A model generated the notes under the pieces. It saw only the letters and a list, made by a program, of their open reading frames with translations, was not told where the DNA came from and ran no database searches. From assembly GCA_039030075.1 (NCBI GenBank), contig JBCCEW010000003.1, positions 124,001 through 188,000 on the forward strand: a DNA stretch of 64,000 nt, in the 5' to 3' direction. The stretch is from Myxococcota bacterium. Its GTDB lineage: Bacteria; Myxococcota_A; UBA9160; SMWR01. The position numbers were made by a program, and so were the translations under genes. Position 1 is the first letter of the stretch; every line of letters starts with the position of its first letter. Below are positions 16,938 through 17,591 of the stretch, piece after piece.

Positions 16938-17591
16938 CTAGCGCGCTCCGTGCAGACGCTTCGCCGCGTCGAGCAGCGCGTCGTTCTCGGGTCGGACCTT
17001 GTAGTCCGGGTTCGAGTACACCCAGCCAACCTGGCCACCCGGTTCGACGAGGAACACGGAGGGCACCGGGAGCTGGTAGTGGTCGCGCCCGGCTGCGGCT
17101 TCGAGATCGATGCCGAAGGTCCTGTACTGGAGGACGGTCGCCTTCGAGAGCTGGAACGCGATCCCGAAGGCGCGTGCCGCGTTCATCGCACTGTCCGAGT
17201 AGAGGGTGTAGCCGAGACCCTCCGCCTTGCGGCTCTGCTGCAGGTTCTTCGGAAGATCGGGGCTGAGGGCGATCACGCGATAACCGAGGCCCTCGAGCTC
17301 CGCTTCGATCTTGCGCAGCTCGCCGAGCTGCGTGTTGCAATAGGGTCACCAGCCACCGCGGTAGAAGACGAGCAGCGCCCCCTGTTCTCCGACGAGCGAC
17401 GCGATGTCGACGGGTTTCCCGTCGAGGTCCGTGACTTCGGCACTCGGAACCGAGGCGCCGACGGCCAACGGCTCGACGGACTCGGCGTCGGAGTAGACGA
17501 CCGCCTGGGCCGCCCAACCGAAACCGAGCACCGCGATTGTTCCGAGAGCGAGGGCGCGCAAGGAGAGATGCGAAGCGTGTAGGGATTGCAT
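16938..17591 (-). CDS. Selenocysteine-containing AhpC/TSA-type redoxin (in-frame UGA)
   Basis: Read through the TGA at 17348-17346, this is one 217-residue thioredoxin-fold protein: signal peptide (residues 1-30), beta strand GALLVFYRGGW, Sec at residue 82, then PYCNTQLGEL and the family's VIALSPD strand. Cysteine homologues of this AhpC/TSA group have GGWCPYCN at exactly this place, so the UGA replaces the first Cys of a C-x-x-C motif and gives U-x-x-C. The frame is intact on both sides and no length change is needed, which argues against a pseudogene. A stem-loop follows the UGA. The protein is probably exported and reduces peroxides or thiols. Standard gene callers would split it into 81- and about 112-residue pieces. 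First gene of a redoxin/VOC/SDR operon. Confidence 0.82.
17311..17345 (-). promoter_or_regulatory. Putative bacterial SECIS element
   Basis: Directly after the in-frame UGA the mRNA can fold into a hairpin with a perfect 8-bp stem, CGCAGCTC (17332-17325) pairing with GAGCTGCG (17321-17314), and a GGC apical loop; TTG/CAA can pair below it around a bulge. The loop begins 21 bases after the UGA and its first two bases are GG, both within what is described for bacterial SECIS elements read by SelB. It lies inside the coding sequence, as expected in bacteria. Confidence 0.65.

Follow-up and report, generated by a model that had tools for sequence, protein, structure and literature searches.

Bacterial selenoproteins that carry selenocysteine (Sec) as the first residue of a UxxC motif in an AhpC/TSA-type domain (PF00578), encoded by genes in which a hairpin directly follows the UGA, have been described several times (PMC1088965, PMC2398784, PMC13188914). 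They were reported as a "Prx-like protein" in the Sargasso Sea (PMC1088965) and as "Prx-like 1," with 225 genes, in GOS (PMC2398784). The 2026 catalogue of 119 families includes a Prx-like thiol:disulfide oxidoreductase (UxxC/UxxU) represented by WP_010940744.1, for which the thiol:disulfide oxidoreductase activity is listed as predicted (PMC13188914). The bSECIS model of the catalogue calls for an apical loop of 3 to 9 nt with G in the first two loop positions, a stem of 4 to 16 bp, a spacing of 16 to 37 nt, and a minimum free energy (MFE) of at most -7.5 (PMC13188914). The anaerobic myxobacterium Anaeromyxobacter has 11 selenoproteins, the threshold for a "selenoprotein-rich" organism being six or more (PMC1794560); that myxobacteria use Sec is therefore in itself no novelty. 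In the one literature collection that we searched, selenocysteine, peroxiredoxin, and Myxococcota were found together in no paper.

The gene analyzed here lies in a 64-kb window, i.e., the whole stretch of DNA under study, which is part of contig C3 (342 kb) of a draft genome of 5.76 Mb with 95% completeness and 3.3% contamination. Its features are as follows.

16938..17591, minus strand: predicted selenoprotein gene, 217 codons from ATG (17591) to TAG (16938), with a single in-frame TGA
17502..17591, minus strand: probable signal peptide, residues 1 to 30, ending in AAQA (by inspection; hydrophobic N terminus in the orthologues; low-confidence stretch of the structural model)
17025..17462, minus strand: AhpC-TSA/redoxin domain, residues 44 to 189, running across the UGA (PF00578, 82.1 bits; AlphaFold2 pLDDT 91.2; Bcp/PrxQ-like fold)
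17346..17348, minus strand: UGA read as Sec82, first residue of UxxC (TGA in 14 of 14 distinct orthologues; Cys in homologues from other phyla)
17337..17339, minus strand: codon for Cys85, the UxxC partner, at the position of the peroxidatic Cys of peroxiredoxins (invariant in the alignment; register from profile and genome-internal alignments)
17314..17332, minus strand: SECIS-like hairpin, 8-bp stem CGCAGCUC/GAGCUGCG, apical loop GGC at 17324-17322 (MFE, frozen stem codons, hairpin score)

We predict with high confidence that this gene encodes a selenoprotein with Sec at position 82. As the initial annotation had noted, a single TGA (17348-17346) interrupts the frame from 17591 to 16938; it is codon 82, and reading through it yields a protein of 217 residues. 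The family motifs that the initial annotation had pointed out on both sides of the TGA, in FYRGGW-U-PYCN and in VIALSPD downstream, are indeed there. In a profile search, the PF00578 match of the read-through protein (cut-off 26) covers residues 44 to 189, so that one domain spans the TGA, and the residues U82-P-Y-C85 form a UxxC motif. When 2.47 Mb of the genome were scanned for coding potential, this TGA was among the strongest cases of same-frame coding on both sides. Standard ORF finding with table 11 breaks the gene into segments of 81 and 112 residues, the second starting from a GTG at 17276; a split annotation would thus lose the protein, as had been anticipated. The same split is what supports the reading of the UGA as an ordinary stop, i.e., of the gene as a decayed pseudogene, as a product of sequencing error, or as a pair of distinct ORFs. 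We consider that reading extremely improbable: 14 distinct orthologues, taken from independent assemblies, share the TGA and have invariant residues flanking it, and the full Sec machinery and the frozen stem codons directly after the UGA, both described below, speak against it as well.

Orthologues with 60 to 62% identity are present in six other genomes of the same family, and a search of 284 genomes sampled from the phylum yielded 11 matches with E values below 1e-40, all in one order and distributed over five families; each of these genes has exactly one TGA. Further orthologues came from public genome loci, mostly labelled Deltaproteobacteria, which were placed in Myxococcota. After removal of duplicates, the TGA was found at the same codon in all 14 distinct orthologues, which represent one order and at least five families. 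A TGA conserved at one codon in 14 orthologues, with coding sequence on both sides, is more than chance. As independent assemblies of many species carry it, sequencing error, which the initial annotation had named as a way for its claim to fail, is excluded. One locus (L059) was omitted from the alignment, as it has a stop within the matched range.

The alignment places a Cys opposite the TGA codon, in keeping with the GGWCPYCN counterpart that the initial annotation had assumed. The 18 more distant aligned homologues that have Cys at this site come from Planctomycetota, Verrucomicrobiota, Bacteroidota, Gammaproteobacteria, and others. Cys-containing AhpC/TSA homologues with FYRGGWCPYCNTQL from the four named groups are approximately 32 to 47% identical to the present protein and have the same motif and invariant residues, Cys replacing Sec. 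Residues C85, Q88, S110, D133, and R200, all encoded 3′ of the TGA, are invariant in the alignment. Maximum-likelihood analysis groups 13 of the 14 Sec forms in one branch (support 97/96) and puts the remaining one (L256) just outside it; one or two Cys-to-Sec events therefore fit the data.

The initial annotation had made the Sec reading depend on selA, selB, selD, and tRNA-Sec, and all four are present in the genome. The tRNA-Sec was identified with Rfam RF01852 (69.7 bits, cut-off 47) and has a tca anticodon according to ARAGORN, and SelA, SelB (C3:233464-235359), and SelD scored 517, 322.6, and 271 bits, respectively. SelD has no internal TGA and is thus a non-Sec SelD. Two hallmarks of a bacterial selenoprotein are thus present, the complete set of tRNA-Sec, SelA, SelB, and SelD in the genome and an in-frame UGA that is conserved in orthologues and replaced by Cys in homologues. 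As selB and the selenoprotein gene share contig C3, approximately 92 kb apart, contamination is an unlikely explanation. The start of selB (L017:6138-9384, C3) falls within the 3′ end of a serS-like gene, so named from its profile match and ORF reading, the predicted product of which would load serine onto tRNA-Sec. Among the genomes that carry the selenoprotein gene, one (G199) is 85% complete, and SelA was not detected in it.

An Rfam gathering search of the 64-kb window found nothing, and we therefore applied the published bSECIS constraints. The CGCAGCUC-GGC-GAGCUGCG hairpin begins 13 nt after the UGA, and its 3-nt loop, with G first, starts 21 nt after it. With its 8-bp stem and an MFE of -13.6 kcal/mol, it falls within all the limits of the model (PMC13188914); the z score was -2.9, and none of 200 shuffled sequences was as stable. 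Codon identity in the stem averaged 0.93 among the 14 orthologues, versus 0.55 at 47 other amino-acid-conserved codons (Mann-Whitney p = 3e-4, a value to be taken as a guide only because the orthologues share ancestry), and all four Gly codons are used for the loop codon between the arms. Such a pattern is explained by selection for RNA pairing but not by protein selection alone. The Cys homologues have no frozen hairpin codons, and folding over the same stretch is mostly weaker in them, although some of them come from lower-GC genomes. When 39,923 TGAs from 2.47 Mb of the genome were ranked by a simple hairpin score, that of the gene came within the top 0.43%. The whole 57 nt after the UGA fold no better than shuffled sequences (z score of -0.18) because longer alternative folds compete, but the short hairpin alone does. 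What supports a SECIS element is thus the conserved codons and the recurrence of such hairpins in other genes rather than a long fold.

The frame would equally be open if the UGA were decoded as another amino acid, by a reassigned code or by a suppressor such as Trp. However, most TGAs with coding sequence on both sides in the genome scan look like normal stops after which another gene begins in frame; the code is thus not reassigned genome-wide. The aligned homologues carry Cys at this position and in no case Trp, and the genome has tRNA-Sec and SelA, which makes such decoding most unlikely. For Sec insertion, the cis and trans parts were found to be present, and from them we infer the act itself: SelB carrying selenocysteyl-tRNA-Sec would bind the hairpin just 3′ of the UGA, so that Sec is incorporated at position 82 and translation does not stop.

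By domain, motif, and hairpin, the features by which it was likened to the catalogue family, the predicted protein is a member of the known PF00578 UxxC Prx-like family, a protein type already described, in keeping with the statement of the initial annotation that Sec redoxins are known in bacteria. The gene differs from the described Prx-like selenoproteins in having a probable signal peptide and in that, within the phylum sample, its close orthologues (E values below 1e-40) are in one order only. It would thus add a probably exported subgroup to this family. By inspection, the hydrophobic N terminus ending in AAQA has counterparts in the orthologues, two of which have a lipobox-like LSAAC or LAVGC sequence; this suggests that the protein is exported to the cell envelope.

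The AlphaFold2 model has a Prx/Trx fold, with low confidence for residues 1 to 30. Among solved structures, Sulfolobus Bcp4 (3hjp; Z score of 23.1, 2.0 Å over 158 residues) is the closest, and those of PrxQ, AhpE, and ResA are also near. Identity to the PrxQ/Bcp peroxiredoxins (3hjp, 2cx3) and ResA (4nmu), which have the same fold and no Sec, is about 15 to 25%. Profile and genome-internal alignments match U82 with the Thr/Ser of the peroxiredoxin TxxC motif and C85 with the peroxidatic Cys, a register that defines a thioredoxin-like UxxC site within a peroxiredoxin-type fold. The present protein thus has UxxC where PrxQ has TxxC, and its site has its counterpart in the CxxC of ResA-type proteins. 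Sec peroxiredoxins (PF00578, TxxU), two genes for which are found in the same genome, share superfamily and fold with it, but the Sec of the present protein lies three residues earlier, at the Thr position. The profile of the SelL-related redox protein (NF040769) matched weakly (50.7 bits, under the curated cut-off of 120), and SelL has UxxU, versus UxxC here.

The product would accordingly combine a Trx/Prx fold with a thioredoxin-like UxxC active site, unlike the TxxU of true Sec peroxiredoxins, and its export to the cell envelope is probable. Most likely, the Sec82 selenolate would attack a disulfide or a peroxide, a selenenyl-sulfide would form between Sec82 and Cys85, and a cellular thiol partner would then reduce it. 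If Sec is inserted, the protein may yet act as a genuine peroxidase in which Cys85 is peroxidatic and Sec82 resolving. The PrxQ/Bcp-like fold is consistent with such a role, and Cys85 does share its alignment column with the peroxidatic residue of PrxQ (2cx3) and the Sec residue of the TxxU peroxiredoxins that this genome encodes. In contrast, the PxxxT part of the peroxiredoxin motif PxxxTxxC (or U) is missing, RGGWUPYC having no Pro and having Sec at the Thr position. Sec is moreover the better nucleophile and occupies the position of the first Cys of thioredoxins, and we regard peroxidatic Cys85 as unlikely, if by no means negligible. The comparisons with Foldseek and VIA-align show the Prx/Trx fold and do not separate peroxidase from thiol:disulfide chemistry.

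Two genes directly follow the selenoprotein gene in the window.

16935-16525, minus strand: VOC/glyoxalase-like gene, beginning 2 nt past the selenoprotein stop codon
16514-15759, minus strand: SDR gene, next after the VOC gene

Co-transcription is possible, and the initial annotation was right about the presence of both genes downstream when it placed the three in an operon. Neither is found beside any orthologue, nor is the divergent upstream DUF188/YaiI-type gene or the carotenoid-oxygenase-type gene, in loci many of which extend no further than 1.5 to 5 kb on each side. The VOC/SDR operon was therefore rejected as a functional context, and we claim no functional link. No sigma-70-like promoter was found near the selenoprotein gene.

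Searching the genome for PF00578 gave 24 matches, 12 of which have one TGA. All 12 TGAs are at the redox position: FTFVU and FTPGU (TxxU), eight UxxC including the present gene, one UxxT, and a GPx-type SQUGLT. Among all TGAs, the 12 genes have hairpin scores between the top 0.4% and the top 8%, with the FTPGU gene lowest. The recurrence of a TGA at the redox position in the eleven other redoxin-superfamily candidates (L105, L106, L108, L109, L112, two genes of L115, L116, L120, L123, and L127), nearly all with a good hairpin, supports the Sec reading. Two of these eleven genes are close neighbors on contig C17.

Selenoproteins outside PF00578 were sought in 43% of the genome (2.47 Mb) by combining the coding scan with the hairpin score, which contributed two FG-GAP/UnbV proteins and one AhpD-like protein with CVFU (PF02627). 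The minimum is therefore 15 predicted selenoproteins, compared with the six or more that define a selenoprotein-rich organism (PMC1794560). Standard annotation would split or lose the present gene and at least 14 others in this genome. The AhpD-like/CMD protein (L167:3062, minus strand, C6) has CVFU as a CxxU motif of known type and a 7-bp hairpin. Examples of TGAs that have coding sequence on both sides but look like normal stops, with translation beginning anew in frame, are those of L240, L166, L241, L208, and L195; three others (L146:1638, L129:2958, and L018:4988) were left uncounted, no domain extending across the TGA. A 720-codon frame with one TGA (L175:11521-13680, plus strand, C6) combines a SelL-related redoxin (NF040769, 146.5 bits, above the cut-off; ULFC) with an SDR domain and possibly represents a fused selenoprotein.

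No formate dehydrogenase alpha subunit matched at the family cut-off in the genome, and none with a TGA was found. Two matches to the heme-copper oxidase family, one of which could be another family member, suggest aerobic respiration. Of 80 genomes that were sampled in the order, 75 have SelA, so that Sec coding is close to universal there. According to reviews, selenoproteins are seldom kept by aerobic bacteria (PMC13188914), and the trait is largely maintained by FdhA or SelD (PMC1794560). A little-studied, probably aerobic myxobacterial order uses Sec far beyond expectation. We think it fairly likely that this order of oxygen-respiring Myxococcota keeps Sec near-universally without Sec-containing formate dehydrogenase or SelD, through an enlarged set of Sec redoxins, the present exported UxxC protein being one of them, and through Sec proteins other than redoxins, the candidate FG-GAP/UnbV family included. 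If so, a Sec-rich aerobic order would run against the views that Sec is rare in aerobes and maintained by FdhA or SelD. The order is a test case for why Sec persists under oxygen. The added value lies in this lineage, a probable aerobe with heavy use of Sec in redoxins and no recognized Sec formate dehydrogenase, and in the candidate new family described next.

The two FG-GAP/UnbV genes of the genome are the following.

L187:10101, contig C17 at approximately 92.1 kb, minus strand: FG-GAP/ASPIC-UnbV (CRTAC1-like) protein, one in-frame TGA
L133:17154, contig C3 at approximately 117.2 kb, minus strand: FG-GAP/ASPIC-UnbV (CRTAC1-like) protein, one in-frame TGA

The family is not in the 119-family table (PMC13188914), and we therefore propose it as a candidate new selenoprotein family. 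In the order, all 18 matches with E values below 1e-14 have a single TGA at one aligned site (further loci L257-L262, L265, and L268-L279), and more distant homologues have Cys there (DYC). In most of these genes, a hairpin with the loop GGUC follows the UGA.
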